Part shown: piece after piece, positions 3,404 to 20,740 of the stretch | Layout: each line of letters opens with the position of its first letter | Position numbering within the stretch: position 1 is the first letter of the stretch | IMG/VR virus record: IMGVR_UViG_3300003690_002863 | Coordinates: 1 to 22,592 of that record | Source of the DNA: a virus | DNA length: 22,592 nt | Reading direction: 5' to 3' (one strand) | Notes under the pieces: generated by a model | Seen by the model: only the letters and a program-made list of their open reading frames with translations | Told to the model about the DNA's origin: nothing | The model's database searches: none | Program-made: the position numbers and the translations under genes

Positions 3404-3730
3404 TCAGCGCTCAAACATGATGTGGGCGAAGGCCGTATTCGTCGAGGCCGCGAGGAACACGATGGAGTTATCGTCCGGCGCCTGCACCGCCCAGACATAG
3501 GCCCCACCCGATGCCACTGGCATCCAGTCGTCGCCCTTGCTGGCGGCATCGGTGCCCGCGAAAGTCACGAAGCCAGCGGCGTCGGTGGAGTCGTCGTTTT
3601 CCTTAAACGCCACCGTCACGAGCCTGGCCCAGTCCGGCAGCGTCACCTTCGTCAAGTTGTCGGCCGTGGCGGCGAGAGCCACCCGCATGCATTGGCGCGG
3701 TGGCGTCTGGGCCGAGAGGTCTACAGCCAT
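3404..3730 (-). CDS. Small beta-rich virion protein, 108 aa
   Basis: The ATG at 3730 overlaps the end of the upstream sigma-like gene by 10 bases (ATGGCTGTAG). The protein alternates short hydrophobic strands with polar turns (LVTVAFKENDDSTDAAGFVTF, GAYVWAVQAPDDNSIVFLAA), which suggests a compact beta-sandwich of the kind found in head-decoration or tail-accessory proteins. One of the seven TCGGTARNAC motifs lies 27 nt upstream of the start, inside the end of the upstream gene, as in other virion genes here. No specific family is recognised. Confidence 0.65.
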   Translation of the reverse strand: MAVDLSAQTPPRQCMRVALAATADNLTKVTLPDWARLVTVAFKENDDSTDAAGFVTFAGTDAASKGDDWMPVASGGAYVWAVQAPDDNSIVFLAASTNTAFAHIMFER

Positions 3731-4191
3731 TGTCTGAGCTCCGGGGGCGTGGAGTCCGTTCTACCGAGGGCCACGTCCTCGAGCTCGGGGACCGGCGGCT
3801 CGACCCACATAGGGATCAGGGCGCCCATGCAGGCATCCTGCTCGAGGCCGACCTGGCCAAGCCGGACGTCGGCCCGGCGGTGGTGGTCGAGAAAATTCAA
3901 TGTGACCGACCGGATCACGATGTAGGCATAGTTGCTCAGGCTGCTGAGCTGGGGATCGAATGGCCGGCGCCCACGGTTGCGGGTCAGGAAACCCCGATAA
4001 ATCTCCTGTAGACAGTCCTCTGGATCGAGCCCTTTGGCGCTGACCAGGTGGGCGAAGCGTGCCCAGAACTGCCGCATAATCAGGCCACGCTGGTCGTCGT
4101 CATCCAGGTCGACACCTGGGGCACCCGCCGGGGACACAAAGCGTGGTGGGGTCAGGTGGGGAGCCGCATCGGGCCGCCGCTTGCTGGTCAC
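3721..4191 (-). CDS. Sigma-70 region-2-like protein
   Basis: The 156-aa product has a Pro-rich N-terminus (1-35), then a region that follows the sigma region 2 pattern: RQFWARFAHLV (40-50), DPEDCLQEIYRGFL (56-69, the usual D-x-x-Q-E core), FDP (78-80), then SSLSNYAYIVIRSVTLNFLD (83-102) and HHRR, equivalent to the helix that contacts the -10 DNA. No region 4 HTH follows; the C-terminus is short and Pro/Glu-rich. If real, it could bind core RNA polymerase and help late transcription. The GTG start at 4191 has no obvious SD and lies 18 nt after the chaperone stop in the same frame. The resemblance is judged by eye. Confidence 0.6.
   Translation of the reverse strand: MTSKRRPDAAPHLTPPRFVSPAGAPGVDLDDDDQRGLIMRQFWARFAHLVSAKGLDPEDCLQEIYRGFLTRNRGRRPFDPQLSSLSNYAYIVIRSVTLNFLDHHRRADVRLGQVGLEQDACMGALIPMWVEPPVPELEDVALGRTDSTPPELRQWL
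3758..3767 (-). promoter_or_regulatory. TCGGTARNAC motif copy 7 (before the 108-aa gene)
   Basis: In the sense direction this site reads TCGGTAGAAC and ends 27 nt before the ATG at 3730. Unlike the other copies it lies wholly within the coding part of the upstream gene. Confidence 0.45.
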
Positions 4192-4209
4192 GGTGTCAAT
4201 GGGTGGCCA

Positions 4210-4931
4210 TTATCCCGATAGGTCGGGCTCAGCCAAAAGCTGACCGAGTAGCCCATCCATGAGATCACCACCCGCCGTGGTGGACTTTCGCCCGGTAGAT
4301 ACGGTGCTGAGCAGGTGGACAAGGTCAGAGGCCTGGAGGCCTGACGTCGACCAGAGCGCGAGGTCTGACTCCTTCCGGGCCAGCATGTAGGCCATGACCG
4401 TGACCCGATGCTCTCGGGGCAGCTCGTGTAGCCACTCAGGATCCCCACCCCCGTAGAGCAAGCCGGCCTCTATGGCGAGGAAGTCCAGCCGGCCCCCGGG
4501 GGTGGTCAGTTTCCCGACTGCTCGGCGGCCTCGGTGCTCTCGGCCATCCGTGACCCCAGCTCCCCTATGAGCCGATTGACGAGCATCATCACACCGGACA
4601 GCTTGACCCCGTGTTCCTGGAGCTCGTCGATGACCGAGTCCCCATACTCTCGCCAGGCCTGGCCCTCGAGCACGATGGGAGCTGCGCCAGCCGTCAGATC
4701 GTATCCGCGGTTGTACCAGCATGATCCGATCGCATAGCCGGCGACGTCGAGCAGCTCGACCAGCCGATCGAGGCCATCGCCCTCCTGGAGGGCCTGGAGC
4801 AGGCCGACCATTCGAGCCGCCTTGCCATAGCTCGGGAAGCGGAACTCAAAATCCCCGAGGGGCTCCCCGAGATCCACGGCGAAGTACCGATCAGAATCGG
4901 GGATGGTGCGGACGGTCGAGCGCGGGGTCAT
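4210..4931 (-). CDS. Tail assembly chaperone, long form made by -1 frameshift (GT-like)
   Basis: A -1 slip at GGGAAAC (4509-4515) lets ribosomes bypass the TGA at 4506-4508 and read 99 further codons to TAA at 4210, for a 240-aa product (141 + 99). The added domain begins LTTPGGRLDFLAIEAGLLYG and has normal protein composition (YMLARKESDLALWSTSG), but no start codon or SD of its own at a sensible place. In lambda-like siphophages the G and GT proteins bind the tape measure and tail-tube subunits during tail assembly and are absent from the virion. This pair matches that design, but lies after the tail-tip genes rather than before the tape measure. Confidence 0.75.
4445..4515 (-). promoter_or_regulatory. 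Programmed -1 frameshift signal: slippery site plus nested stem
   Basis: In the sense direction the in-frame heptamer G GGA AAC (4515-4509) is followed at once by TGA. After TGA, CCACCCCC (4505-4498) is perfectly complementary to GGGGGTGG (4452-4445), and inside it two copies of GCCGGC (4493-4488 and 4467-4462) can pair with each other, giving a two-part stem-loop starting 3-6 nt after the heptamer. Lambda uses the near-identical GGGAAAG. The stem is a visual prediction. Confidence 0.75.
4506..4931 (-). CDS. Tail assembly chaperone, short form (G-like)
   Basis: The ATG at 4931 has a strong SD (AGGAGG, 7 nt away). The 141-aa product has a beta-like N-terminus (YFAVDLGEPLGDFEFRFPSYG), followed by helices (RMVGLLQALQEGDGLDRLVELLDVAGYAIGSC and VIDELQEHGVKLSGVMMLVNRLIGEL), and a polar C-terminus ending QSGN at the slippery site. 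This size and architecture, a helical domain feeding a frameshift at its last codons, are those of siphophage G-type chaperones. No motif proves it alone; the call rests mainly on the frameshift arrangement and its position after the tail-tube gene. Confidence 0.7.
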   Translation of the reverse strand: MTPRSTVRTIPDSDRYFAVDLGEPLGDFEFRFPSYGKAARMVGLLQALQEGDGLDRLVELLDVAGYAIGSCWYNRGYDLTAGAAPIVLEGQAWREYGDSVIDELQEHGVKLSGVMMLVNRLIGELGSRMAESTEAAEQSGN

Positions 4932-4952
4932 GGGTGTCCTCCTGACCTGTGG

Positions 4953-5525
4953 TTATCGTGTTTGCTTCGGCCTCCGGGCCGCCTTTCGCGGGGGCGCCTT
5001 GGCCTTGAGCGGGCGGACTACGGCAGCCGCCAGCCGGCGGCGGGCGTGGTGGTATAGGTTGCCCCCTTCGGGACAGTCCAGGACCAGGGCCTCGACGCGC
5101 TTCAATGACACGCCCAGACGGTCAGCGATCTGGGGAAGGCTGGCCTGTGCCTCCCGTCCGGCCATACGGACCCGGCTGATAGCCGCCAGGGTCTCGGGGG
5201 TGTGCTGAGTCCTGGGGATGATGGGCATAGCCACCATTTTGACCTGACCACCTGGGCCCAGTGCAGTCTTGACCACCACGTCCCAGTCATGGCCGTCGTA
5301 GAGGTGCTTGCGCTTTTGGAGCAGCCACTTCACCCGGGCTTTGATCTCGAGGTCCTCGATCCCCCGACTACCGACGATCCCAGGGCCTAGACGGGATCGG
5401 GCTGGCTCTCTCCAGCTCGGGTGCAGCTCCGTGAGCTCCGCCTCGATCTCGAGGACCTGGTCCGCGAAGCGCTCCGGGGGCAGCGCGGCCCTGAGATGAG
5501 CCGACGGGAACACGAGGGCCGCCAC
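4953..5525 (-). CDS. Hypothetical protein with HTH-like segment and basic tail, 190 aa
   Basis: The GTG start at 5525 lies 6 bases after the tail-tube stop; no good SD is visible. Residues 20-35 form an acidic helix (ADQVLEIEAELTELH). The middle contains KARVKWLLQKRKHLYDGHDWDVVVK. Residues 128-148 (ASLPQIADRLGVSLKRVEALV) fit a helix-turn-helix like those of sigma region 4 or phage regulators, and the last 25 residues are Lys/Arg/Pro-rich (RPLKAKAPPRKAARRPK). Between tail tube and chaperone one would expect a tail protein, so a DNA-binding role is surprising. It might be a regulator, or a structural protein whose HTH resemblance is fortuitous. Confidence 0.55.
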   Translation of the reverse strand: MAALVFPSAHLRAALPPERFADQVLEIEAELTELHPSWREPARSRLGPGIVGSRGIEDLEIKARVKWLLQKRKHLYDGHDWDVVVKTALGPGGQVKMVAMPIIPRTQHTPETLAAISRVRMAGREAQASLPQIADRLGVSLKRVEALVLDCPEGGNLYHHARRRLAAAVVRPLKAKAPPRKAARRPKQTR

Positions 5526-5531
5526 GAGCGG

Positions 5532-6038
5532 CTAGGCCAAGGTCGGTCTGATGTCGCTGTGACTGACCCAATTAACGGAGGTGGTGTCCGGATCTCCCTC
5601 TGCGAAGGAGTAGTCGAAGGAGCAGTCCGTGATCGTGATGGTGTGATCCGCGCCGTCTCCGTGATCGGATCCTTCGATCGAGAGCCGCAAGTCCAGGGCA
5701 AACACCTCTGCCGTCGCGCCGATCGTGCTGACCCAGGGGGCCGTCGAGACGTACCCGCTTTGATTCAGAATGTCGAAGAGGGTGGCCACACCGGCGTCGG
5801 TGGCGTCCCTCCAATAGGCCGAAAAGGACCCACTAAGCCCGGTATCGTCCCCGTACCTGGTCGACGTGACCAGGCGCCCACGGTCGAGGAAGTCTAGCCG
5901 GCTCTCCTGGGTCGCGGACATCGTAAAGTCACCCGGCTCGGCGCTGAGATCGATCGTATTACTGCCGCCGAAGCCTGCAGCATCGGCCAGGCTGATGAGC
6001 CCGTCACGCTTGGTTTTTACGACGGCGCTGTAAGCCAT
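5532..6038 (-). CDS. Probable major tail (tube) protein
   Basis: The 168-aa product has the look of siphophage tail-tube subunits: an N-terminal DGLISLADAAG segment, GDFTMSATQE, a charged loop and strand (RGRLVTSTRYGDDTGLSGSFSAYW), a helix (DAGVATLFDILNQSG) and a C-terminal strand pair (HTITITDCSFDYSFAEGDPD). This resembles the gpV/Hcp-like tube fold, stacked in rings around the tape measure. The ATG at 6038 is preceded 30 nt upstream by a TCGGTARNAC copy, as expected if the motif marks abundant virion genes. The gene follows the tail-tip genes, whereas tube genes usually precede the tape measure. A related beta-sandwich virion protein is the main alternative. Confidence 0.65.
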   Translation of the reverse strand: MAYSAVVKTKRDGLISLADAAGFGGSNTIDLSAEPGDFTMSATQESRLDFLDRGRLVTSTRYGDDTGLSGSFSAYWRDATDAGVATLFDILNQSGYVSTAPWVSTIGATAEVFALDLRLSIEGSDHGDGADHTITITDCSFDYSFAEGDPDTTSVNWVSHSDIRPTLA

Positions 6039-6068
6039 GGGATCTATCCGGTGGAGGCTGTGGGGGAG

Positions 6069-6078
6069 GTGTTACCGA
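6069..6078 (-). promoter_or_regulatory. TCGGTARNAC motif copy 6 (before the tail-tube gene)
   Basis: In the sense direction the site reads TCGGTAACAC, starting 3 nt after the stop of the 167-aa gene and ending 30 nt before the ATG at 6038. It is the only copy preceded by CG instead of CT/CC. Confidence 0.4.
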
Positions 6079-6080
6079 CG

Positions 6081-6584
6081 CTACGCCGAGCGGCCCAGGA
6101 GCAGCACGTCATAGTCGATGGTGTCTGATCCTGGGTCGATCGTGATGGTGTCCCCAGTGCCCGCCACGGGGGTGACACCGTCCACCGGATCGAGCCACAC
6201 GAAGGTGGACCCAGGGCCGATCTTGATCAGATCACCAGAGGCGCCCCAGAGCCCTGTGATGGGGTTCGAGCCGCCGCCGATGCTCAGGATCTCGGTGCTG
6301 GTGGTGGACTTGTTGCGGACCAGGACCCCGCATAGCGTGACGAAGCTGCCGGCGTCTCCTGTCAGGACCGAGGACAGCCCGCCGAGGACATCGATCGCCA
6401 CGGCCGAGCCAGCCGCCGAGCCGCTGTCTGAGTAGACACGATCGAAGGTCGAAGCTGTCGAGCCGGGCCCAAAGAAGGAGCTAACCGCGAGGTTGTGGGT
6501 CATTCGGCTAGTGCCGAGATCGTTGGCCTCCTCCTCCTTAGCCTTGAGGACCAGAGAGAAATCGGTCTTGACGGTGCTGGCCAT
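6081..6584 (-). CDS. Beta-rich virion protein, 167 aa
   Basis: The ATG at 6584 has only a weak GGA as SD. The protein has a helical start (SLVLKAKEEEANDLGTS), then many beta segments: SAVAIDVLGG, FVTLCGVLVRNKSTTSTEILSIGG, DLIKIGPGSTFVWLDP, TITIDPGSDTIDYDVLLLGRSA. The order VLVRNKSTT, then a 'GPG' turn, then a C-terminal DVLLLGRSA, recalls small phage proteins that decorate heads or tails, although I cannot name the family. It stands between the tail-tip protein and the tail tube, and a TCGGTARNAC copy lies 21 nt upstream. Confidence 0.65.
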   Translation of the reverse strand: MASTVKTDFSLVLKAKEEEANDLGTSRMTHNLAVSSFFGPGSTASTFDRVYSDSGSAAGSAVAIDVLGGLSSVLTGDAGSFVTLCGVLVRNKSTTSTEILSIGGGSNPITGLWGASGDLIKIGPGSTFVWLDPVDGVTPVAGTGDTITIDPGSDTIDYDVLLLGRSA

Positions 6585-6605
6585 GGGTCATCCGAGCGGG
6601 GGGGG

Positions 6606-6615
6606 GTACTACCGA
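6606..6615 (-). promoter_or_regulatory. TCGGTARNAC motif copy 5 (before the 167-aa gene)
   Basis: In the sense direction it reads TCGGTAGTAC and includes the TAG stop of the 550-aa gene. It is followed by a run of nine C and a second CGCTCGG before the ATG at 6584. Confidence 0.45.
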
Positions 6616-8261
6616 GCGAACACAGAAGGCTCAAACAAGATCAGCTGACAGCTGAGCGAGTCTTGCCCATACGATATCGAGCCCACCAGGCCCAGCACGT
6701 CGGTAAGGTGGAGGTCTTCGTCGGTCAGCGTGACCACGTCACCAGGTCTCAACCAGTCCAGCGATCTGGGCAACGAATAGAGGATCTCGCGGCGAGGGTG
6801 GCTGTGCCGGCGGGCCAGGTCCTGCAGGACGGCGCCAGCTGTCGCCGGGTCATAGATGACCGAGGCCTCGAGGGTCATCGATCGTTTGCCGAAGGTGGCC
6901 GCTGACCGGCGGCACCAGAAACCCGGGGACGTGTTCGGATCCTTGCTCGTGTATCGGTCACCGTTCAGCGTTCGGTATCGGCTGAATCCTCCCGTCTCCA
7001 CATTGGGCGCATAGCGGATCGTCAGGTCGTTGTAGACCTCGGCGGTGGACGTGTAGACAACGGCACCCTCGCGGGTGCAATTGCGGCCCTCCTCCAGGGC
7101 GTCGACGGCCTGGTCGAAGGACAAGGCACGGGCCAGCCAGGGCACGACAAAGAGCCCGTCTGGACCCGTGCCCACGGTCACCGGCAACAGGGGCAGCACC
7201 TCGGACAGGAGCCAGGCCCAGGGGCTGGAAGGCCCGTTAATGTAGGTGTCGATCTTGTAGCCGTCGAGGATCGATAGTTCACTGGTCCGGCTGTGGTCGA
7301 TCCGGAGGGAGGACTCACCGAGGGCCCACCGAATGACATCACCGGCACCACGAAGGGCACCCGCGGCAAAGGGATTTTGTAGCCCGCCACCCGAGGCCGG
7401 ATCCCAGACGGTGAAGAGCTGATCGCCCTCCTGGGGACTGTTGGACGTGGCGTCCGGCTCGACGTAGGTGACGGGCTGGCCCAGGACGTCGACCGTGTGC
7501 ACGAAGGTGGTGGTGGTGAAGGTCTTTGCGTCGTCGGTGGCATTGTAGATTTTGACGCTCGTAACGGGGGCTGTCCCACCACAGATCAGGATCCAATGGT
7601 CCCCCGTGGCGGTCCCGCCCGAGGCATCACGGCGGACCAGCAAAGCGGGTGAGCCCGGGATCTGATCGCTCAGACTCGCGGAGGTGGTGCCGACACCCAC
7701 GGCCAGGCCCGGCGCCCCGATCACGATCGGGTAGAACGATCCCACGATGCCGGGATCAGGGCCAAGGGTGCCGGTCTCTGCCCAGGTGGTCCCCGTCTCG
7801 ACCACCCAGGACGCCGGGGGCTTGACCGTTAGATCGTTGCCCGGGTCCTCGACGAGGGCAAATGTGAACAGCTCACCGAGCGCAGCATAGGCGGGCTCGT
7901 CAATGATGCCCGAGAGCACCACCCGCCGGGACTCCCAGGGCTCGCCCTCATACCACTGGGCGAGCTCGCCAGCCGCCGCAAAGAGCGCCGCACCTCGGGC
8001 CACGTCCTGAGCGAGATCGAAGTCGAGCAGGGCTTCGAAGGACAACGATCGGGCGGCTGGCATGGACGCCCAGAGATCGAGCGCTCGGTGGTAGTTGGCG
8101 GGTCCGAGCCCGCCCGTGAAGACGTATAGCTCCCCATCAGTGCCCGTAATTGTGACCGGCCCGTCTGTGCTGAGTCTCACCACCCGGCCCCCGATCGTGA
8201 TGGTGACGAGCCACCGATAATGATTAGCCAGGGCGCGGAGTGCTGGCCGGAGCTCCGGCAC
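6609..8261 (-). CDS. Tail-tip / baseplate hub-like protein, 550 aa
   Basis: The GTG start at 8261 immediately follows the TAG of the 1085-aa gene (TAGGTG), and the SD GAGGAGG lies inside that gene's end. The N-terminus (WLVTITIGGRVVRLSTDGPVTI) reads like the beta-rich start of tail-tip proteins. Residues near 75-100 (FDLAQDVARGAALFAAAGELAQWYEGE) and the distal WLRPGDVVTLTDEDLHLTDVLGLV suggest domains handling a ring-like tail end. The size and place, two genes after the tape measure, fit a distal-tail or hub protein that joins tube and receptor-binding parts. No catalytic motif is visible. The call rests on position and general composition. Confidence 0.6.
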   Translation of the reverse strand: MPELRPALRALANHYRWLVTITIGGRVVRLSTDGPVTITGTDGELYVFTGGLGPANYHRALDLWASMPAARSLSFEALLDFDLAQDVARGAALFAAAGELAQWYEGEPWESRRVVLSGIIDEPAYAALGELFTFALVEDPGNDLTVKPPASWVVETGTTWAETGTLGPDPGIVGSFYPIVIGAPGLAVGVGTTSASLSDQIPGSPALLVRRDASGGTATGDHWILICGGTAPVTSVKIYNATDDAKTFTTTTFVHTVDVLGQPVTYVEPDATSNSPQEGDQLFTVWDPASGGGLQNPFAAGALRGAGDVIRWALGESSLRIDHSRTSELSILDGYKIDTYINGPSSPWAWLLSEVLPLLPVTVGTGPDGLFVVPWLARALSFDQAVDALEEGRNCTREGAVVYTSTAEVYNDLTIRYAPNVETGGFSRYRTLNGDRYTSKDPNTSPGFWCRRSAATFGKRSMTLEASVIYDPATAGAVLQDLARRHSHPRREILYSLPRSLDWLRPGDVVTLTDEDLHLTDVLGLVGSISYGQDSLSCQLILFEPSVFAR

Positions 8262-11200
8262 CTAGACCTCCTCCTCGAGCCGGACACCGTTGAGGGTGAC
8301 GACCTCGGACGTGTTCTCCGTGCCGAGCCGGGCTTGACGGCTCACCGTGGACATGAGGCGGGCATAGACGCAGCCCTCACGGCTGCTGATCTTCGTTTGC
8401 TTGTCGCCTCCCGTAGTCTCGGGGATGCGAGGAACATAGACCACGGGCCGAGCTGCACCGCCGAGGTCTCGGATCAAACCTTCGATCAGAAGTGGAGCCC
8501 CATAGCGATCCGCCACCGGGGGCGCGGACACCGAGCGCATGCTCACGAAATCGGGATCGGGGGTGTCCCCTGAGATCGCGGTCAAGTCCACCTCAGACCA
8601 CCCAAAGGTGACGGCACGCCGAGCTGGGCCCAGGGCCTTGCCTGCTCGAGCTCCGGCCTGGTCCTGCCGAAGGCTGTAGTTGGGTGCGGTCTCAATGACC
8701 CGGCCTCGGGCGTATTTGTGACCGAGCAGGGCTACGGCGCCCATCAGGACCACACCGATCTCGAAGTACCCGTCTGCCGTGGTCGTGGCCGGGATCCTGA
8801 GCGCATAGCGGGAGTAGGTGGTCACGTTCTCGTGGAGCAGGACCAGGGCTGATGGGTGCCATAGCTCCACCGTCGCAGTGGCTCCCGCTGGTGCTGTGCC
8901 CTCAAACCGGAACTCGGGCCGCTTCGTGGTCGAGTCCGTGTAGCTGCCCTCGGAATTCCAGACGATCCGGCGGACGTCGCCACCATTGAAGCGGGCATAA
9001 CCACCCACGAATTCCCCGAATTGGACGTAGCGGGCGTCGACACTCGCGCCCGTGTCGACCGTGACGGTGTCCCCCGTCACGATGCACGCCACACCGCTCA
9101 GGCCCTGGTCGGCCTGGAGGGTGGCCAGGGTCACCCAGGCGGCCCCGTTCCAGCCGAGGAAGGTGGCCACAGGGAAGTTAATCCCGCCGAGGTATAGGCC
9201 AATTGAACTATTGCCAAGGGTGCTGGCCAGGGTCAGATCCCAGGAGAACGTGTGATCGGTGGTGTCAGTGCTTCGCCAGCGGCGTGTAGGCGTAGCGCTG
9301 ATGACCGGGTCCAGGGCGTCGACCGGATAATCAAACCGCGGCGCGATCTTCCAGGTGTCCCCCCGGGTGGCCGGGCCTGATGTGCCCCGGATGGTGAGCC
9401 CCTGGTCCAGATACAGGAGGTGAGGCGGCACAGGCAGCGGCGCTCCATAGAGCACCATCGGCCGCTGGGCCAGGGTGTCCTGGCTCAGATCGTCAAAATA
9501 GCGGCCCTGCTCACCGGAGCCGGCATCGGCCACCCAGTGGAAGAAGGTCCACTCAGAATCTTGAACGGCGAAATTGCCCCAGTCAATGAGATCCCCGGGG
9601 GATGCCCCAGCCGTCAGGGTCGTGGCCGTGATTAGCTGGGTCCAGGCGTCGGTGGCTGGCTGGCGGCTGTAGAGCGTAACGGAGCAGTCGGCGGCGCCCG
9701 TGTTGCTCTTCCGGAGCGCCAGCTTGAAGATCGTCTGCGAGCCGAGCCCGCCCGGGGTGACGGTCCCCACAGCGGAGCCGGCGTGGACGTCCCAGATCCT
9801 GATCTGGGTGGCGCTGAAGCGGACTTCGATCTCGAACGTGCCGAGGATGACATTGACCCCGACATTGAGGGCAGCCACCGAGCCGGCCGAGGAGAGGAAC
9901 ATCCCGAAATAGCAGATCAGGCCATCGGCCGCGGTGCCAGCCGGGACGACACTGTAATGGGTTGTGCCTGTCGGATTTAGACCGATCGGGGCGGTGCCAC
10001 TCGGGATGACAGCGCCGCCCGTCTTCGTCCACCCGAAGTATTCCGGGGCCTCTGTGGCGATCCAGGTGCCCGCCTCGGGGGACGTGGTCGACCCGAAGCC
10101 GCGGTTGGTAGTCGGATCCTGCTCCAGGATCCGGGGCTGACAAAGAGTGTTCCAGCCCCCTGTCTCGGCAATTATGAACTTGTGATCCGTCAGAGGCAGG
10201 GTGCCCGAGCTCGCGGTCTGACCGAGCAGCCAGCAGGCCCGGCCGGCGGCCTCGGTGACCTCCCAGGCGAAGACCTCTTCGGTGCTGTTCCAGTTCCAGA
10301 CCTGCTCGAGGTGTGCCCAGGTGGAGCCACCGTCCCGGCTCTTGTAGATATCGATCCCGTCCGTCTGGTCGAAGGTAACGTAGTGGCTGCCGTCCTGTGA
10401 CGTGTAGGCGACCAGGTGATCACACAGGATCGAGCTGAGCACCGTGACCAGCTCCCCGTCGAGGTAGCCCATGTAGGGGGAGCTCAGACGGAAGATCAAG
10501 ATCCGCGAGGCGGCCTGGTCCTGATAGACGAGCATGAACACACCGCTGACCCGGTCGACCAGGACGTCCATATGACGAGGGCCAGCCACTACGCCGTCGG
10601 CCTGGTCATCCTTGACCAGCACGAAATTTAGCCCGGTGTCGTCCGAGGCATATTGCAGGAAGCCACGCTTCGTGCCCAGGCTGACCCAGTCCTTTTCTAT
10701 GAACATGAGGACCGCGCCGGCCGAGTAGGCCGCCCGGAGCTTGTAGACATTGATACTCGAGAGATCGAGGACTCCGTCCCAGCCGAGATATTGGGCTGTC
10801 CGCCAGGTGGCCCCGTCGTCGTCCGAGTAGGACGCCCAGAGCTGGGTCGAGCTCGTGTTGGCATCGATCTCGAGCGCGATGTAGTAGGCGATCACACGGC
10901 CAGAGGGCAGGACGATCGCATCTACCAGGCTATCGGCCGCGGTTGGGTTCTCGTATGTTCCGGCATCGGCGTCGATCGTGGCCACCCTCTCGACCACCAC
11001 CACCGCCGCCGCCGCGGTGTGGGCCTCCGGGTCATACTTGCGGGCCAAAAGCTGGTTCTGATTCCAATAGAGAAACAGGGCCATGTCATCGGCGGTGGAC
11101 ACGGACGTGTAGTTGACCCCGGTGGAGGCGTCCCGGTTCAGCAGGCTGTCAACGTGGAGGTGTCCGGGGACGTTGGCTGTGTTCCATCCCCGCCAGGCGG

Positions 11201-13939: not shown

Positions 13940-14367
13940 CAGCTCAGGATCCCCGCCTCTATGGCACGGGCCAGGACACCTGGCAGGGTCTTTTTGAGCT
14001 TGCGGGTGGCAGCGCTCGAGGGCTTACGCACGTGCGCGGTCAGAGGGGACCGGGGCCGGGTGGCGTCCTCCATTGACCCGACACGGGTAGACCTGATGTA
14101 GCGGGTATAGGGATATGGATTGCTTAGGACGATCTCCACCAACATCGAGTCAGGATGCACCCGTAAGGTGGTGGTCCAGGCGTCCCGGGACTTGCCCGAT
14201 TTGACCGGCCAATTGACATCGATCTCGTCCTGGAGGATGGCGTCGGCCTCGGCCTGCATCTCATCAGCCACCGGGCCGAGCAGGGCGCGGATCTCGGCCT
14301 CGAGGTCATCAGCCAGGGGGCCGGTGATGGTGACCTCGGATCGGCCCTTTCCCACCTTGATAGACAT
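13939..14367 (-). CDS. Head-tail connector/neck protein, HK97 gp10-like
   Basis: The ATG at 14367 has a GAGGAC SD region and lies 15 bases after the previous stop. The 142-aa protein has an N-terminal helix (DDLEAEIRALLGPVADEMQAEADAIL), then WPVKSGKSRDAWTTTLRV, which is the typical 'P-x-x-SG-x-x-x-x-x-W' pattern of HK97-gp10-like neck proteins, a strand SMLVEIVLSNPYPYTRYI and a basic C-terminus (RKPSSAATRKLKKTLPGVLARAI). Such proteins sit at the head-tail interface. The place, just before the tape measure with no tube or chaperone between, is unusual; a tail-completion role is the alternative. Confidence 0.7.
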   Translation of the reverse strand: MSIKVGKGRSEVTITGPLADDLEAEIRALLGPVADEMQAEADAILQDEIDVNWPVKSGKSRDAWTTTLRVHPDSMLVEIVLSNPYPYTRYIRSTRVGSMEDATRPRSPLTAHVRKPSSAATRKLKKTLPGVLARAIEAGILS

Positions 14368-14382
14368 TGCAGGTCCTCGAGC

Positions 14383-14823
14383 TCAAGCAAAGGTGAAGCG
14401 GTGGAACACCGTCAGACGGATCAGACTGATCACCCAGTCACCCGCCGGGGACACGGTGCGGCTCGGCACACTGTCGATCATGACCTGCAGGTAGGTAGCA
14501 TCGAGATCGAGGAGAGCCCGGAGGACCTGGTGCTCGTGGTCGAGGCCTCGCCCATAGTCCCCGCTCTGATCGTCAGGTCTGAGCCGGTAGGCTGTCCGCA
14601 CCTCGATCACGGTCTCGGCCTCTCCCTCATCCCCGACACGTCCCCGGCCGTCAAACTGCGCCAGGGTGGTGCGGGGGGTGCTGATGCTGTAAGAGCCCGG
14701 GATCAGGTGATCGGTAGACCGGCCAAAATGGTCAGGGACAACCCTAGAGCGGGTGTAGCCGGCATCCGTCAGGGCCGTGTCGAGCCGATCTCTGACCTCA
14801 GAGACGGTGAGGACGCCCTGCAT
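14383..14823 (-). CDS. Tail terminator/completion-like protein, 146 aa
   Basis: The ATG overlaps the preceding TAA by one base (TAATG), indicating coupling. The protein starts with an amphipathic helix (LTVSEVRDRLDTALTDAGY), followed by beta segments with AETVIEVRTAYRLRPDD and, near the C-terminus, LQVMIDSVPSRTV and WVISLIRLTVFHRFTFA. A helix followed by a beta sheet is the pattern of tail-terminator (gpU-like) and neck proteins, which cap the tube and join it to the head. It lies between the adaptor-like and gp10-like genes. No decisive motif is present. Confidence 0.6.
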   Translation of the reverse strand: MQGVLTVSEVRDRLDTALTDAGYTRSRVVPDHFGRSTDHLIPGSYSISTPRTTLAQFDGRGRVGDEGEAETVIEVRTAYRLRPDDQSGDYGRGLDHEHQVLRALLDLDATYLQVMIDSVPSRTVSPAGDWVISLIRLTVFHRFTFA

Positions 14824-15566
14824 TAGTGCCGGCCAGCGAGCCAGATCGTCGGCTGTGCAGCTCGACGGGTCGACGGCGTGCCCTCGTCCTCGTCATCGCT
14901 CGAAGCGTAGATGAAATTCAGATCGGCCCAGGCGTCCTGGTATTGGGCGCGGTAGGCGTCCGCCTTCTCCCCATAGGTCTCGTTGAGGCTCGTGGAAAAG
15001 TCCGCAAAGATCAGCGACAAGGTAAGCGTGAGGTGGGCATCTCTGAGGGCTGACGGGCTCAGGATGAGGTTAGGCCGGTCACCCTTGGCAATGAGGCGGC
15101 CCTGCAGGGTGGCCCACGCTTCGTCCAGGTAGGCCTGGAAGTCGGACACCGAGCTCAGCGGGCTGGCGCTGGTCGGGTCCAGAGACCTATGGCGGCGGAA
15201 CAGGTCCGCGTCAGTCACCACCGGGTAAAGCACGTTGCGGATCAGACTCGCGTCATTGCGGAAGACGTGGGTGATCGTGTCAACGATGAGGGACCACTCC
15301 ACCCGCCACCCTTCGCCATAGATGACCGTGCTGGCCGGCGTGTGGCTGTAGGTAGCGATCGACGCTGTGACGGTCACGCTCTGGGCGCTGACCTGCTCAG
15401 TGCCGGAGCCATCCCAGATCGTGATGGTGCTGCCGGCCTCGGTGGGCGCCACGAGCGCTCCGTCCTGCCAGAGAGGACAGGCCAGGGCGTTAGCGCGGCC
15501 ACGCTCGAGCAGGTCCGGCAAGAGAAACCGGGCCGTGAGGGTGGAGGTGGCAGACCCGACCGCCAT
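14823..15566 (-). CDS. Head-tail adaptor-like protein, 247 aa
   Basis: The ATG at 15566 lies 2 bases after the upstream stop. The N-terminal half is beta-rich (ARFLLPDLLERGRANALACPLWQDG, TITIWDGSGTEQVSAQSVTVTA, EGWRVEWSLIVD). The second half is helical (PVVTDADLFRRHRSL, DFQAYLDEAWATLQGRLIAKG, ALRDAHLTLTLSLIFADFSTSL, EKADAYRAQYQDAWADLNFIY), a layout seen in proteins that sit under the portal and form the connector ring. A four-helix second half is similar to HK97 gp6-like adaptors. Function is inferred from this layout and its position after the head genes. Confidence 0.6.
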   Translation of the reverse strand: MAVGSATSTLTARFLLPDLLERGRANALACPLWQDGALVAPTEAGSTITIWDGSGTEQVSAQSVTVTASIATYSHTPASTVIYGEGWRVEWSLIVDTITHVFRNDASLIRNVLYPVVTDADLFRRHRSLDPTSASPLSSVSDFQAYLDEAWATLQGRLIAKGDRPNLILSPSALRDAHLTLTLSLIFADFSTSLNETYGEKADAYRAQYQDAWADLNFIYASSDDEDEGTPSTRRAAQPTIWLAGRH

Positions 15567-15568
15567 GA

Positions 15569-15796
15569 TTAGGCGGTCTGACCGAGGATCGGCACCCAGG
15601 CACCGGCCACCCGCATGTAGACCGCGTCATCCCCGTTTGTGGCGTCCGTCCGCATGTAGAGGCTCCCGTTTGGATTAGACGCAGACGGGACACCGGCCCC
15701 AGAGCTGACCGTGGGCGCGGACGTGGCCGAGGCTCGGACGATGACCTCATTGACGTCGACGGGGGCGTCGACCTTGAAATAGGGGGTGGTGCTCAT
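15569..15796 (-). CDS. Small head-decoration/fibre-like protein, 75 aa
   Basis: The ATG at 15796 has an AAAGGA SD about 7 nt upstream, and a TCGGTARNAC copy ends 28 nt before it. The short N-terminal part (TTPYFKVDAPVDVNEVIV) leads to SSGAGVPSASNPNGSLYMRTD and then DAVYMRVAGAWVPILGQ. The 'G-x-P ... NGSLYxRTD ... YxRxxGAWV' pattern recurs in small phage head-fibre and tail-fibre proteins, where it forms a beta-rich trimer-like module. This suggests an outer virion component, perhaps a capsid decoration. It is separated from the capsid gene by the sulfotransferase-like gene. Confidence 0.65.
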   Translation of the reverse strand: MSTTPYFKVDAPVDVNEVIVRASATSAPTVSSGAGVPSASNPNGSLYMRTDATNGDDAVYMRVAGAWVPILGQTA

Positions 15797-15824
15797 TGGG
15801 CATCCTTTGATGGTGGGGGGCTAC

Positions 15825-15834
15825 GTGCTACCGA
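15825..15834 (-). promoter_or_regulatory. TCGGTARNAC motif copy 4 (before the 75-aa gene)
   Basis: In the sense direction it reads TCGGTAGCAC and includes the TAG of the sulfotransferase-like gene. The flanking GGGCT and AGCCC can pair around it, so the motif core would sit in a loop. Confidence 0.45.
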
Positions 15835-16481
15835 GCCCACGGGATGAGGGGACCAGCTCGGGCCGCCTTGAGGAACTGATAGCCGCACCTGTCGATCAGC
15901 TCGCGGTCAGCCGACCGGACCCGATCCTTTAGGGCGCGGGTGTAGCGGTCCCGGTGTGCGCTCCCGGTGGCCCGCGCATTGCTCGGGGGGTGTGAGCTCG
16001 GCGGCCGGTCCAGGAGTAGAGACCAGCCGTTCGACACCTGGGCCAAGTCTATCAGCCAGGCGGGGAGCTCTCCTAAAAAGGCCCGATAGGTCCAGCTCCA
16101 AAGACCGCCGGCGAGCTCGGGGGGGGGACCGGGTCCATAGGGGGACCACACGACGCCCGGGGGATCGGGGATGACCTCCACCGTCTCCGGACGGGTCCAC
16201 CCTCGGAGGACAGCGTCAAAGGAGAGGTCACCGTTGCCCCATTGGGCAAGGGCTCTGTGCTGGCCCATTGCGTCGAGGTGCCCATAGAGGCTGGCATACC
16301 AGGACCATGGATCGCGGATCTGGGCGACTACCTCATGGGTGGGGATCAACCAGGCGGCCTCAGACGGGGGACCGTGTGACCCGTAGACCTTGGCAAGCCC
16401 GATCGCGGACCTGGTCCAATTCCCGCCCGTCTTCGGGACATTCGTAAAGAGGATCCGGTGCCCATCGACCAGATAGGGCAC
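15828..16481 (-). CDS. Sulfotransferase-like protein (PAPS-binding motifs)
   Basis: The GTG at 16481 lies 1 base after the preceding TAA. The 217-aa product carries both cofactor signatures of the family: residues 12-22 FTNVPKTGGNW resemble the 5'-phosphosulfate loop (PKTGGTW type), and residues 56-66 RDPWSWYASLY match the 3'-phosphate motif (R-x-P-x-x-x-x-x-S). The C-terminus DRYTRALKDRVRSADRELIDRCGYQF follows the usual family ending of helix then 'D-x-x-x-x-x-x-GY-x-F'. Such enzymes move sulfate from PAPS to a hydroxyl or amino group on sugar, lipid or protein. The target is unknown; position among head genes suggests a virion or host-surface acceptor. It could also be an inactive relative. 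Confidence 0.75.
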   Translation of the reverse strand: MPYLVDGHRILFTNVPKTGGNWTRSAIGLAKVYGSHGPPSEAAWLIPTHEVVAQIRDPWSWYASLYGHLDAMGQHRALAQWGNGDLSFDAVLRGWTRPETVEVIPDPPGVVWSPYGPGPPPELAGGLWSWTYRAFLGELPAWLIDLAQVSNGWSLLLDRPPSSHPPSNARATGSAHRDRYTRALKDRVRSADRELIDRCGYQFLKAARAGPLIPWAR

Positions 16482-16482
16482 G

Positions 16483-16653
16483 TTAACGCTTGCCCTCGCG
16501 CCGGAGCTTACCGTCTACCCGTTGCATGGACTCGCGGGCCAGCTGGCGGGCCTTGCTGGCGGGGATGCCGGCGTCGACCAGGTCCCGTGCGTTGTCGTCC
16601 ATCACACGCCGATCGCCTGCTTTCTCGCCAGGTGTTCCGGTGGTGGTGGGCAT
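16483..16653 (-). CDS. Small helical protein, 56 aa
   Basis: The ATG overlaps the preceding TGA by one base (TGATG). The sequence runs MPTTTGTPGEKAGDR, then an amphipathic, charged helix region (MDDNARDLVDAGIPASKARQ and LARESMQRVDGKLRREGKR) to TAA at 16483. Junctions on both sides (1-base overlap upstream, 1-base gap downstream to the sulfotransferase-like GTG) support a real coupled gene. The two helices with 'GIPASKARQLA' between them are similar in feel to small DNA- or protein-binding domains, but no family is recognised. Confidence 0.6.
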   Translation of the reverse strand: MPTTTGTPGEKAGDRRVMDDNARDLVDAGIPASKARQLARESMQRVDGKLRREGKR

Positions 16654-17330
16654 CAGTCCTCCAGGACGGGGGCAGCGGATCGGGCCTTGGCCTTCGCACC
16701 ACGGCCCGAGGCCTTCGTCAGGGCGTCGACCTGGATCAGGAGCTGCCGGGCACGAATGGTCGCCCGGCCTCCGTGCTTTGCGCTCAAGGCCTCGGCCTCC
16801 TCCAGGTGCTCAGTGGCTCGCTCGAGTAAGCGGCGGGCCAGGTGAGGCGGACAGCCCGGCAGCTTTCCCGAGGTGACCAGGCCCGCCAGCCACTTTGAAT
16901 AGCCGGTCTCGTCGGGCGCTGGGATGCGGTCACCCGCGTGGCAGGTCTCCCAGACGGAGACATAGGCCGTCCGGATCGTCTGTGACCCGTTGGGCCGGGT
17001 CTCGACGGTCGTGAGGTAGCTGTCACCACCTGGCCCCCATTCATAGGGGATCGGGATCCTGCCCTCCTCCTCGAGCTTCGCCCGGGTGGAGGCAAACCGG
17101 ATCCGCTTGTCCTTGTCGATCTCGATCCGATTAACGCCCGCCAGGAGGGGCAGCTTTGAGAGCATCGGGACCAGGCGCCCGTCCATCACCATCCAGCGCT
17201 GCGGGCTGTAGACCAGGATATATGCGGGGGTCGCATCGATCCAGGGATGCCCGAGACCGAGATCCCGGGTGGCGAATTCGGGCGTGTACGAGGCACCGTT
17301 TGACGTGGTGGGGGCTAGCTGCTTGGCCAT
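16653..17330 (-). CDS. Unknown head-module protein, 225 aa, downstream of capsid
   Basis: The ATG at 17330 follows GGAGG at a 7-nt distance, which decides the start; an upstream in-frame GTG at 17396 would run through the regulatory hairpins. The first part (PWIDATPAYILVYSPQRWMVMDGRLVPML) is beta-like, followed by NRIEIDKDKRIRFASTRAKLEEEGRIPIPYEW, and the C-terminal third has helices (PPHLARRLLERATEHLEEAEALSAKHGG, TIRARQLLIQVDALTKASGRG) and a short Lys/Arg/Ala tail. It could be a capsid accessory, cement or completion protein. No known family was recognised. Its expression seems specially controlled by the RNA element in the 126-nt leader. Confidence 0.7.
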   Translation of the reverse strand: MAKQLAPTTSNGASYTPEFATRDLGLGHPWIDATPAYILVYSPQRWMVMDGRLVPMLSKLPLLAGVNRIEIDKDKRIRFASTRAKLEEEGRIPIPYEWGPGGDSYLTTVETRPNGSQTIRTAYVSVWETCHAGDRIPAPDETGYSKWLAGLVTSGKLPGCPPHLARRLLERATEHLEEAEALSAKHGGRATIRARQLLIQVDALTKASGRGAKAKARSAAPVLED

Positions 17331-17436
17331 CTCGTGTCCTCCGAGATCAGGGGGCTTCGTAGTTCTACCGAGCGGCCAGCACGGAACGACACCCACGGCG
17401 GCAGCCCTCGGAGGACACCAGAGGATCCGCCGTGGG
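17329..17436 (-). promoter_or_regulatory. Candidate kissing-loop RNA element controlling the 225-aa gene
   Basis: Three arrangements are visible in the leader. CCCACGGCGG (sense 17436-17427) and CCGCCGTGGG (17401-17392) form a perfect 10-bp stem with a 25-nt loop. Inside that loop GTGTCCTCCGAG (17418-17407) is the exact complement of CTCGGAGGACAC (17345-17334), which contains the SD of the downstream gene. The SD itself lies in the 7-nt loop (GAGGACA) of a 6-bp hairpin, ATCTCG/CGAGAT (17347-17342 and 17334-17329), that includes the A and T of the start codon. The loops can pair, so the SD could be hidden or freed by a structural change. Function is inferred. Confidence 0.65.
17362..17371 (-). 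promoter_or_regulatory. TCGGTARNAC motif copy 3 (before the 225-aa gene)
   Basis: The sense sequence is TCGGTAGAAC within the 15-nt GCTCGGTAGAACTAC (17373-17359), which is identical to the copy before the capsid gene. It ends 31 nt upstream of the ATG at 17330 and lies between the two arms of the anti-SD pairing. Confidence 0.5.
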
Positions 17437-17456
17437 CGCCGTCAAGGGGCAAGGGG

Positions 17457-18365
17457 CTAAGCGTCGGAGATGACCGACACACCTGCACCGTCGATGGCCT
17501 TGGCCACACCGGCAGCATGCGACACGACGTAGGACGTGGCAACGTAGGTGCCCTGGCGGACACGCTCGAGCCGGGCGCGGCCCATGTCCACGATGTTGGG
17601 ATCGGACTCCGGGGCCATGGCAGCGTCGGCCCAGGCCAGGCCACCGAGGGTGGTGATGAAGCCCGCCCGGTCGGCGGCTGTGTTTGCCGTGGGCACAGCG
17701 CTCGAGGTGTAGAAATCGATCCCGAGCCAGGTGCCCTTGTATGCGCTCTCGAGCCCTTGATTGATCACGCCGCCCATGGTCTGGGCAGGCAAGACACCGG
17801 CGCTCATTGCATCGGTCTCGAGGTCTCCCCATTGCTGCGGGTGCAAGACACCGAGCATGGACCCGGAGCCCTTGGCGATCCCGATCGTGGTCTTGCCGTC
17901 AATGATGTCGGTCCACACCAGGTTGACCCCGGTGGATCCGACGTGGCTGCCGAAATCGTCGCCCACATTGGCCAGGAGCGAGATCAGCGTCTGAGCGACC
18001 GAGATCGCGGCATCGCGGGCAAACATGACGGGGTCCAATTTCCCGTCTGCGATGTAGCGGGCCAGGTCGTCGAGCGTGTAGCGCTTCGCACGGGTGGCGA
18101 TCGTCACGTCGGTCGAGGCATCGGTCAGGGCCGTGTTGGCGACCTCCGACCCGGGCGTGGTAGCCGCCAGCAGGTCATAGCCGTCGAGGCCGAGGTGGGG
18201 CACCCGCACCACGGTGGAGCTGGGGCTCGAGGCGGTGGCGTGGAAGAGCGCCGGGTGGGTGAGGATGCTGCCGTCACGGTCGGCAAGCAACATCAGGAAT
18301 TCGGCGGCCATTACCTCACCGGCAACGAGATCGCCAATTCCAGACGGGATAATTTCATTGGCCAC
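17457..18365 (-). CDS. Major capsid protein
   Basis: The GTG at 18365 has GGAG 6-7 nt upstream. The 302-aa product has an Ala/Glu-rich N-terminal helix (GDLVAGEVMAAEFLMLLAD), a loop with TDVTIATRAKRYTLDDLARYIADGK, the helix DPVMFARDAAISVAQTLISLLANV, then GIAKGSGSMLGVLHPQQWGDLETD, a central beta/turn part (GTWLGIDFYTSSAVPTA) and a C-terminal segment ending ATSYVVSHAAGVAKAIDGAG. The arrangement and length fit the HK97-fold capsid subunit without a fused protease or scaffold; the separate scaffold-like gene lies just upstream. No pre-protein cleavage site is evident. It follows portal and scaffold, the normal head order. Confidence 0.8.
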   Translation of the reverse strand: MANEIIPSGIGDLVAGEVMAAEFLMLLADRDGSILTHPALFHATASSPSSTVVRVPHLGLDGYDLLAATTPGSEVANTALTDASTDVTIATRAKRYTLDDLARYIADGKLDPVMFARDAAISVAQTLISLLANVGDDFGSHVGSTGVNLVWTDIIDGKTTIGIAKGSGSMLGVLHPQQWGDLETDAMSAGVLPAQTMGGVINQGLESAYKGTWLGIDFYTSSAVPTANTAADRAGFITTLGGLAWADAAMAPESDPNIVDMGRARLERVRQGTYVATSYVVSHAAGVAKAIDGAGVSVISDA

Positions 18366-18367
18366 GG

Positions 18368-18398
18368 GGGGCTCCAGGGATCAGAGGTGGAGCAGCCC
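18368..18398 (-). promoter_or_regulatory. Hairpin enclosing the capsid gene SD
   Basis: In the sense direction GCTCCA (18393-18388) and TGGAGC (18376-18371) form a 6-bp stem with an 11-nt loop, and GGG (18398-18396) can add pairs with CCC (18370-18368) after a 2-nt bulge. The GGAG of the second arm is the only visible SD of the capsid GTG start. Hiding of the SD is a reasonable inference; stability is not strong. Confidence 0.4.
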
Positions 18399-18438
18399 AT
18401 ACAGCCCGTGACGTGGGCGACCCGTGGACGGCTGGGTA

Positions 18439-18448
18439 GTTCTACCGA
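18439..18448 (-). promoter_or_regulatory. TCGGTARNAC motif copy 2 (before the capsid gene)
   Basis: The sense sequence is TCGGTAGAAC in the 15-nt GCTCGGTAGAACTAC (18450-18436), starting 4 nt after the scaffold TAA. Here the distance to the start codon is longest, 73 nt, and the site is itself a GGTAG-AA-CTACC dyad. Confidence 0.5.
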
Positions 18449-18452
18449 GCCC

Positions 18453-19097
18453 TTAACCCTTCGACGGCTGGCGATAGCCCGCGGCCACGCTGAGATCTTT
18501 GTAGCGGCTCCAATTACCTGTCTTCACGCCGATCTCGCGGGCCTGGCGGATTGCATCGGCAGAGACCGAAGACGGTGCCCCGGGTGGCGTGACCGATACC
18601 GCAGGCGGTCTGGGCGGCGAGCTCGGCGGCTGACCTGGTGGGACGGCGGCAGCGGGTGGGGGGCCCCCACCGAGGAACTGACGCAGGGCAACAGGCGCAG
18701 AGGCGGGATCGCCCTTTAGGGTTGCCAACCAGTCCCCGATCGTCGGCCGGTCAGACTCGGCCAGCTTCGACCAGGACCACTCGGCCAGCTCCACCACCTC
18801 CGGATCCGTCACACCCAGGGCCGCGCCGATGTCGCGGTAGGAAACAAAGCGGGCTTCAGCGGCGGCCGTCGCGGCCTGGGCCTCGGTCAGCTGGCCCGCC
18901 AGCGTGTCGACGTTGGCGGCTCGCTCGAGCGCTGTACTTAGATCCGCCTGTAGGGTCTGGACCTGGGCCTCTAGACCTTGCTTTGCGTTGACCACCCGCT
19001 GGAAGTGCTCATAGCCGACCGTCTTTGCTGTGCCATTCTCTGGCAATGGGGCCGGGGGGGTAGTGGCTGGCGGTGTGGTGGTGTCGGGGTCAGGCAT
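18453..19097 (-). CDS. Putative capsid scaffold protein, 214 aa
   Basis: The ATG at 19097 overlaps the portal stop by 8 bases and has GGAGG about 9 nt upstream. The protein starts with a Pro/Thr-rich tract (DPDTTTPPATTPPAPLP), then a helix with heptad spacing (residues 29-76, FQRVVNAKQGLEAQVQTLQADLSTALERAAN and AGQLTEAQAATAAAEARF), an acidic helical middle, a second Pro-rich tract (PPAAAVPPGQPPSSPPRPP) and a basic C-terminal end (VKTGNWSRYKDLSVAAGYRQPSKG). Coiled coil, low-complexity linkers, and a basic C-terminal end that could contact capsid are standard for scaffolds. It is encoded directly between portal and capsid, as expected. Confidence 0.75.
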   Translation of the reverse strand: MPDPDTTTPPATTPPAPLPENGTAKTVGYEHFQRVVNAKQGLEAQVQTLQADLSTALERAANVDTLAGQLTEAQAATAAAEARFVSYRDIGAALGVTDPEVVELAEWSWSKLAESDRPTIGDWLATLKGDPASAPVALRQFLGGGPPPAAAVPPGQPPSSPPRPPAVSVTPPGAPSSVSADAIRQAREIGVKTGNWSRYKDLSVAAGYRQPSKG

Positions 19098-20724
19098 TGC
19101 GGGTGTCCTCCGGCGTGACTGTAAAGCTTCGGCCTACGGTGCCCATTACCCGATCGGCAGTAGCTGGCGCCATATTGAAGAATTCGGTAAGCATGGCCAC
19201 ACCAGCGTCACGGGGCAAGGCACCGAGCGCCACACTCTGCACGATACCCTGGGCGGCTGTGACCTGGGCCCCATTGAGGGCCGTGTCCGCCACCTTGCTG
19301 ACATCACCAGGCAAGCCAGCAGGCAGACCCACCAGACCTGGCTCGAGATCGGCAGCAGGATCCGCGAGCTCGGCATCGCCCAAGCTGATCAGCATCAGGG
19401 CCTCTTTTGCCTCTTCACGGCTCAGGCCTTGGTTAAGTTCCATGTAGGCCGAGACCTTGTCCATTAGACCAGCCTCGAGCCGGGTGGTGATGCTGTCGAG
19501 CTCGGCACGCTGCTCGGCCGGATCCTGGGGTAGGGACTTGTAGGCTATCCGCCAGCCGTCGACCGGGCCGCCTAGTAGGCCCGCCGTGAGGGTGATGAGC
19601 TGCAGGTCCGAGCGCATGAACAGCGGTTCATAGGCCCGCTGGGCCTCGCGCTGTGCCTCCCGGCTCACGGCCAGGCTTGCGGCGGATCTGACATCGGACT
19701 CGCGCCGGGACACCCCCACGGTACCTAGGGCCATCTCGACGATCCGCCGCTCATAGCGCTCGATCGCGCTGAGAAAAGCGTCAGGATCCACCGGGCTCGT
19801 CCATTGCCCGACGACGGGCTGGCCGGAGCTGTCATCGGACTGTCGGAGCAAAAGCAGCGTTGCGGGGTCTGTGACCACCTCGGCGCGGCGGCCCTCCGTG
19901 GCGGCATCCAGGCCCACCGGCTCAGCCCCGATCGCGTAGCGCTGAGCCCAAGAGGCATCAGCGAAGGTATGGGCCAGCATCGTGTAGTAGACGCCCAGCT
20001 GGAGCGAGCCCTCGAAGACCTCGGCGCCGCTCCAGGCGTCGAAGGCGTAGCCGGTCTCGGCCGACGAATAGGCCACATACGGCAGCACAGCGCCCCGATC
20101 CGTCCACCATGGATAACTGTCACCCACCCGGACACCACCGAGGACACGCTCAGAGACATCGGCGCCCGACGCATCGATCGCCCGATAGCTGGGCGTCTGG
20201 GGATCGGTGATGAGCACCACCCACCGGGCCGGGTCGTCGGGGTCTCTGGACCACTCACGGACAGCCATGACCACGGAGGGCTGACGCGGATCTACGTCGA
20301 CCTGGACCATGTCCGGCCACACTAGGCGATAGACCGGCTCCCCATCCACGATCGAAACATGCACAAGGCTATTATTGAGCGCCAGGGTGTCCCGCTGGAT
20401 CCGGTTGGCCAGCTGCCAGTAGCCCGCCTCTGACATCGAGGCGGCCACGAGCTCCCCACCCACCGGGGGCGTGACCTCGGGCACCTGGCGATAGAGTCCG
20501 GCAAGCTGTGAAAAGACGTGACGGGCCGGGTTTGCGGTCAGGTCTGGAGGCGGCCACGCTTCGCGCCTGACATTGCCCACCGTCTGAGTCAGACGGTCGA
20601 TTATGTCCGGCTCGTGGAGGTTGTATAGGATTCGGCGTCGGAGCCGGGTGTGCTCGATCCGGCGTACCTCTGCCGGGTCCGAGGGCAGGGGCGGCGCTGT
20701 CAGGAGTGATCCATAGGTAGACAT
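19090..20724 (-). CDS. Portal protein, 544 aa
   Basis: The ATG at 20724 lies 9 bases after the TerL stop and has no strong SD, so it is likely to be translated by coupling. The N-terminal segment (RIEHTRLRRRILYNLHEPDI) and QLAGLYRQVPEVTPPV lead to a beta region (SLVHVSIVDGEPVYRLVWPDMVQVDVDP, VVMAVREWSRDPDDPARWVVLI), then helices (FLSAIERYERRIVEMALGTVGVSRR, AASLAVSREAQREAQRAYEPLFMRSD) that fit the long stem helix of portals, and the late part LEAGLMDKVSAYMELNQGLSREEAKEALMLI. Size and position after TerL and before scaffold match SPP1 gp6/HK97-like portals, the 12-subunit ring at the packaging vertex. Confidence 0.75.
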   Translation of the reverse strand: MSTYGSLLTAPPLPSDPAEVRRIEHTRLRRRILYNLHEPDIIDRLTQTVGNVRREAWPPPDLTANPARHVFSQLAGLYRQVPEVTPPVGGELVAASMSEAGYWQLANRIQRDTLALNNSLVHVSIVDGEPVYRLVWPDMVQVDVDPRQPSVVMAVREWSRDPDDPARWVVLITDPQTPSYRAIDASGADVSERVLGGVRVGDSYPWWTDRGAVLPYVAYSSAETGYAFDAWSGAEVFEGSLQLGVYYTMLAHTFADASWAQRYAIGAEPVGLDAATEGRRAEVVTDPATLLLLRQSDDSSGQPVVGQWTSPVDPDAFLSAIERYERRIVEMALGTVGVSRRESDVRSAASLAVSREAQREAQRAYEPLFMRSDLQLITLTAGLLGGPVDGWRIAYKSLPQDPAEQRAELDSITTRLEAGLMDKVSAYMELNQGLSREEAKEALMLISLGDAELADPAADLEPGLVGLPAGLPGDVSKVADTALNGAQVTAAQGIVQSVALGALPRDAGVAMLTEFFNMAPATADRVMGTVGRSFTVTPEDTRNA

Positions 20725-20730
20725 CGGCCC

Positions 20731-20740
20731 GTCTTACCGA
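20731..20740 (-). promoter_or_regulatory. TCGGTARNAC motif copy 1 (before the portal gene)
   Basis: The sense sequence is TCGGTAAGAC and includes the TAA of TerL. It ends only 6 nt before the portal ATG, the shortest distance of the seven copies, so it overlaps the place where an SD would be. Confidence 0.35.

Follow-up and report, generated by a model that had tools for sequence, protein, structure and literature searches.

A TCGGTARNAC repeat ahead of phage virion genes as a probable one-box late promoter for a phage-encoded region-2-only sigma factor

Introduction

The ECF sigma factor gp36 of phage phiEco32 serves middle and late genes from the motif tAATGTATAtA, with transcription starting 6-8 nt downstream of it (PMC4281155). 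In phage T4, gp55 is a region 2 protein without sigma4, and the late promoter is an 8-base pair TATA box (PMC2988020). Short repeats ahead of genes have also been described as the start-associated sequence (SAS) of cluster K mycobacteriophages, GGGATAGGAGCCC, which is located 3-7 bp from the start codon in the non-structural half and has a Shine-Dalgarno core (PMC3203893).

The window analysed here is the whole 22,592-nt stretch of DNA, a linear fragment from IMG/VR, in which copies of TCGGTARNAC precede virion genes. By analogy, its system appears to be functionally most like those of phiEco32 gp36 and T4 gp55, with no sequence match of the window system to either protein. As in phiEco32, a phage-encoded sigma factor (in the window, a proposed one) would share a common short motif, whereas the motif sequence is different and the window sigma is only 156 aa long with no domain detected after region 2. 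The likeness to T4 gp55 lies in a region 2 protein without sigma4 and in one box at the -10 place with no -35, but the window box is GC-rich, unlike the TATA box of T4. The T4 late TATA-box consensus is TATAAATA, which is not matched by the consensus of the sites in the window and its relatives, (C)CGGTANNAC. The SAS resembles the window motif as a set of short, one-directional repeats just ahead of start codons, but differs in that the window motif has a variable distance to the start (5-114 nt across contigs), a separate downstream GGA core and virion-gene targets; the spacing and the separate core do not fit a cluster K-type SAS.

Motif sites in the window

An earlier sequence-only reading had reported seven copies of TCGGTARNAC on the sense strand, here the minus strand, which carries the coding sequence of the virion genes. 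All seven were recovered exactly at the positions claimed (Table 1), with none on the other strand of the whole window. The expectation by dinucleotide shuffling was 0.13 copies on average and seven were never reached, and permitting one mismatch yielded just five extra matches in the window, which is the chance level; that these repeats are real is virtually certain. The reported distances of 6-73 nt to the next start, with five of the seven at 21-31 nt, agree with those measured (Table 1). All seven sites lie no more than 85 nt upstream of a start, a range that holds 4.7% of both-strand positions when called starts are considered, and the corresponding chance is ~5e-10 in an estimate that used called gene starts and counted the 225-aa gene with a start other than the ATG at 17330. 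When patterns enriched ahead of starts were sought without prior assumption, TCGGT...AC came out first in the window, whereas enriched gapped 8-mers counted over the whole contig gave codon-usage-like patterns alone; the same kind of pattern search in the relatives found no motif of equal clarity. A sigma70-type promoter search across the window did not rise above chance.

At three sites, those following the TerL, 217-aa and 550-aa genes, translation of the gene ahead ends at the TAA or TAG of the motif itself, as had been pointed out in the earlier reading. A ribosome-site-like core, GGA(G/T), is found between motif and start at six window sites, all but that of the portal gene. The terminase matches Pfam and PHROG models, and the portal, capsid and tail names, taken over from the sequence-only reading, are putative assignments backed by gene order and orthology among the contigs. 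Elsewhere in the window, a GGGAAAC slippery heptamer is located at 4509-4515 (-), immediately before the TGA of a 141-aa ORF; a -1 shift there enters an ORF ending at 4210 that is conserved in contigs G001 and G016, and, to judge from the sequence, this is likely the frameshift site of a tail assembly chaperone.

Table 1. Motif sites and associated features in the window, with proposed roles.
Feature	Sequence	Coordinates	Strand	Proposed role and context
Portal site	TCGGTAAGAC	20731..20740	-	Proposed promoter; ATG 6 nt downstream
Capsid site	TCGGTAGAAC	18439..18448	-	Proposed promoter; 73 nt to GTG; ahead of conserved leader
225-aa gene site	TCGGTAGAAC	17362..17371	-	Proposed promoter; 31 nt to ATG at 17330
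75-aa gene site	TCGGTAGCAC	15825..15834	-	Proposed promoter; 28 nt to start; its TAG ends the 217-aa ORF
167-aa gene site	TCGGTAGTAC	6606..6615	-	Proposed promoter; 21 nt to start; its TAG ends the 550-aa ORF
168-aa gene site	TCGGTAACAC	6069..6078	-	Proposed promoter; 30 nt to start; gene named tail tube in the sequence-only reading
108-aa gene site	TCGGTAGAAC	3758..3767	-	Proposed promoter; 27 nt to start; within the 3' end of the sigma gene
Capsid mRNA leader element		18396..18425	-	Conserved, hairpin-like; between promoter and start
156-aa sigma factor ORF		3721..4191	-	Region 2 at 3874-4062; candidate to read the motif
190-aa ORF		4953..5525	-	Weak helix-turn-helix; speculative partner of sigma

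Conservation and lineage variants

Relatives of the window were IMG/VR contigs found via terminase and capsid and taken as whole records. In G001, the motif is conserved before the portal, 75-aa, 167-aa and 108-aa genes and absent before the capsid, 225-aa and 168-aa genes; G003 and G004 carry it before portal, capsid and 225-aa genes, G004 additionally before the 75-aa position; and G006, G013 and G016 carry it before the capsid, 225-aa, 167-aa, 168-aa and other genes. The site ahead of the 168-aa gene, lost in G001, is present in both G016 and G015. An alignment of 21 sites from five contigs, all 21 on the sense strand, fits (G/C)(C/G)C-TCGGTA-(G)-N-AC. The earlier remark that no second box is shared also holds for this larger set, in which a search for a -35 or other box at fixed spacing brought up isolated columns alone, as multiple testing predicts. 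When a PWM was trained on the other contigs, the seven window sites ranked first with 12-21 bits, against 9.7 for the best antisense match. At the site within the 3' end of the sigma gene, the codons CTC GGT AGA are unchanged between the window and G001 and the preceding ELED carries synonymous changes; over the sigma gene, the codon is changed at half of all identical residues.

Several relatives carry a variant of the motif. In G015, CGGTA(C/T)CAC (CGGTAYCAC) precedes the portal, capsid, 225-aa and 168-aa genes as well as the gene that follows the 550-aa one; in G012, CCCGGTAGCAGT precedes portal, capsid and one other gene and TCGGTAGCAGT the first gene; and in G017, GGTAGAAC, mostly followed by GG, is found before the portal, scaffold, capsid and 225-aa genes. 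The core common to all variants is GGTANNA, and all seven contigs compared (the window, G001, G004, G006, G012, G015 and G017) have the portal start codon 6-7 nt beyond it. Promoters of this kind start RNA 6-7 nt after a -10-like TANNAC. Since the portal ATG lies at the same distance past the box, the portal mRNA is predicted to be leaderless.

Apparent promoter exchange and leader at the capsid gene

In many relatives that lack the motif, the capsid gene is preceded by TTGACA-N17-TAnnnT. The broader pattern TTGAC-N16-19-TAnnn(T/C) was found upstream of capsid in 12 of 19 motif-less contigs as against none of six motif-bearing ones (hypergeometric 0.0097, with kinship between contigs uncorrected) and in 1.7% of random windows. 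Many contigs with this type of capsid promoter have the same leader element as the window. This element, with the consensus GGGTCG-N-CCCGTMAA-N-CGTAGG and a possible short hairpin, occurs in the window, G001, G004, G006, G012, G014, G017-G020, G026, G029, G030 and G038; in an alignment read by hand, its third pair is mostly C-G, with T-A in G006, G-C in G019 and A-T in G020. Rfam gave no match in the window and three weak, chance-level matches in five other loci. In relatives with a sigma70-type promoter, the end of the -10 box lies 13-17 nt, and once 19 nt, from the leader anchor (13 nt from the true anchor in G030), and the end of the motif lies 14-16 nt from it across contigs (15 nt in the window). 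Because the distance to the leader is equal, the motif is taken to occupy the place of the -10 box, and no other single observation argues as strongly for a promoter as this placement before capsid.

The capsid leaders of G006 and G016 contain the element in two tandem copies, a possible reason why motif and capsid start stand 114 nt apart. In G034-G037, CGGTAGTAC falls inside a TTGACA-type promoter region ~90 nt upstream of the capsid gene, either by chance or perhaps as a transitional form between the two kinds of promoter.

A candidate phage sigma factor

The 156-aa ORF, which holds one of the seven sites in its 3' end and had been overlooked in the sequence-only reading, matches Pfam Sigma70_r2 (PF04542) with an E of 1.6e-4 and 21.9-22.5 bits, just below the curated cut-off of 24; its homologues in G001/G039 (30.5-31.3 bits) and G015 (27.5-28.6 bits) are above that cut-off, and Pfam gave no match for the G016 homologue. 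Its AlphaFold model has a pLDDT >90 over aa 31-70, and in a structural comparison of the modelled core (aa 30-111) sigma region 2 domains filled almost every top row, the best match having Z 6.3 over 75 residues with an rmsd of 2.5; for a bundle of helices, a Z of about 6 is modest. A Foldseek search by itself found nothing significant for the model, and the protein sequence had no match in PDB sequences or PHROG. On the model and the Pfam match, the protein appears to belong to the Sigma-70 family by region 2. It does not qualify as an ECF or full sigma factor, with region 4 for a -35 box: Sigma70_r4 was nowhere above cut-off in the contigs searched, which gave short, weak HTH matches only. 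As a region-2-only sigma, it would be expected to read a -10-like box without a -35, which matches the appearance of the sites. A tblastn search of the phage collection with the window sigma matched a single record, the 485-kb uncultured phage LR745208, in which an unannotated sigma2-related protein (LR745208.1, 74411-74665; L122) shares 34% identity over window aa 23-106 (E 8e-6) and is 244 aa long compared with 156 aa in the window.

The sole weak HTH match of the window sits in the 190-aa ORF, which was seen only in contigs also carrying the sigma gene (the window, G001/G039 and G016) and for which a fold search gave no trustworthy match. As a guess, it might be a gp33-like partner; no sliding clamp gene was identified in the window.

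Among all contigs, sigma homologues were found in the window, G001/G039, G016 and G015 only, a sample of three lineages, and the motif or CGGTAYCAC is present in each. The 17-30 kb contigs with no detected sigma (G007, G010, G018, G022, G034 and G035) have no multi-copy motif; as the contigs are fragments, a missing sigma gene in any of them is no proof of absence. In a terminase, portal and capsid tree, the motif-less G014, G007 and G010 are interleaved with the motif/sigma contigs, G014 branching next to the window's clade as its fully supported sister.

A search for capsid relatives gave no match for the window or G022 capsid in the phage collection and a single one in the genome collection, on a Janthinobacterium MAG contig with 69% G+C and two CGGTA..AC matches, a match that was not taken to indicate the host.

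Discussion

The TCGGTARNAC motif is very probably a promoter and is likely to be read by the phage sigma factor, and the combined reading, a one-box late promoter served by the phage's own region-2-only sigma, is the probable one. The repeats are observed, with their bias to one strand, their conservation and their placement, as are the sigma2 domain and its occurrence alongside the motif; that the sigma binds the box, that RNA starts at the box and that this takes place late is what we infer. The promoter would have an extended -10-like form, (C)GG-TANNAC, lacking a -35 box, at which host RNA polymerase with the phage sigma (3721-4191, minus strand) would start RNA ~6-7 nt past the box. Separate late transcripts would thus be made for the portal gene (leaderless), the capsid gene (with a structured leader) and the 225-, 75-, 167-, 168- and 108-aa genes.

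Internal late promoters, mRNA processing sites and a start-associated element had all been offered in the sequence-only reading. The first is favoured here by conservation at orthologues, the -10-box placement, the lineage-specific variants and the co-occurrence with a phage sigma. An action in the mRNA, as a processing site or a start-associated translation element, would fit sites just ahead of starts and the constant portal spacing, but the start distance spans 5-114 nt and separate GGA(G/T) cores stand between motif and start at the six non-portal sites, both of which disfavour a translation element, and processing leaves the promoter swap unexplained. Moreover, mRNA folding did not pair the motif consistently (mean paired probability 0.48 vs 0.59 background), and in front of the capsid gene the motif stands ahead of the leader RNA element, where a -10 box would be, so that an mRNA element is considered very unlikely. 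A stoperator-type element as in mycobacteriophage L5, bound by a phage repressor or roadblock protein and repeated over the late region, would account for short, asymmetric copies in a single orientation at gene borders. However, the copies are limited to the starts of particular virion genes, before capsid the motif stands where a canonical promoter has its -10 box, a fixed portal spacing is unexpected for a roadblock and no repressor gene was identified in this fragment; such a role is judged extremely unlikely.

The remaining alternative keeps the promoter and changes its reader, which would be a host sigma (an ECF or alternative factor, or the housekeeping one with a phage activator), the phage sigma2 protein doing something else. 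TANNAC does look like a -10 box, CGGTAGTAC in G034-G036 overlaps a TTGACA-type promoter, the 190-aa HTH protein could serve as an activator, and G012 and G017 carry motif variants with no sigma gene visible, both being short fragments with the sigma region outside the part covered. Against this, the 21 sites have no -35-like or activator box at a fixed spacing, the motif and the sigma gene coincide in contigs that are interleaved with contigs lacking both, and the variants of the motif are lineage-specific. A host reader is therefore regarded as unlikely. More specific than the preferred reading, and doubtful, is a split sigma in which the 156-aa and 190-aa HTH proteins together would read a GC-rich one-box promoter, box (TCGGTARNAC, CGGTAYCAC, CCGGTAGCAGT and GGTAGAACGG) and sigma would co-diverge, and the portal mRNA would be leaderless.

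If the promoter reading is true, 5' ends are to be expected 5-9 nt after GGTANNAC. The analysis ties an orphan motif to a candidate reader encoded by the same phage, and the capsid locus provides a natural experiment in which relatives appear to exchange a host-type for a private promoter in the same place. A sigma this small, limited to region 2 and aimed at a GC-rich target, would be useful, together with its lineage variants, for reading sigma-DNA specificity, and the leaderless portal mRNA is a prediction conserved across this virus group.
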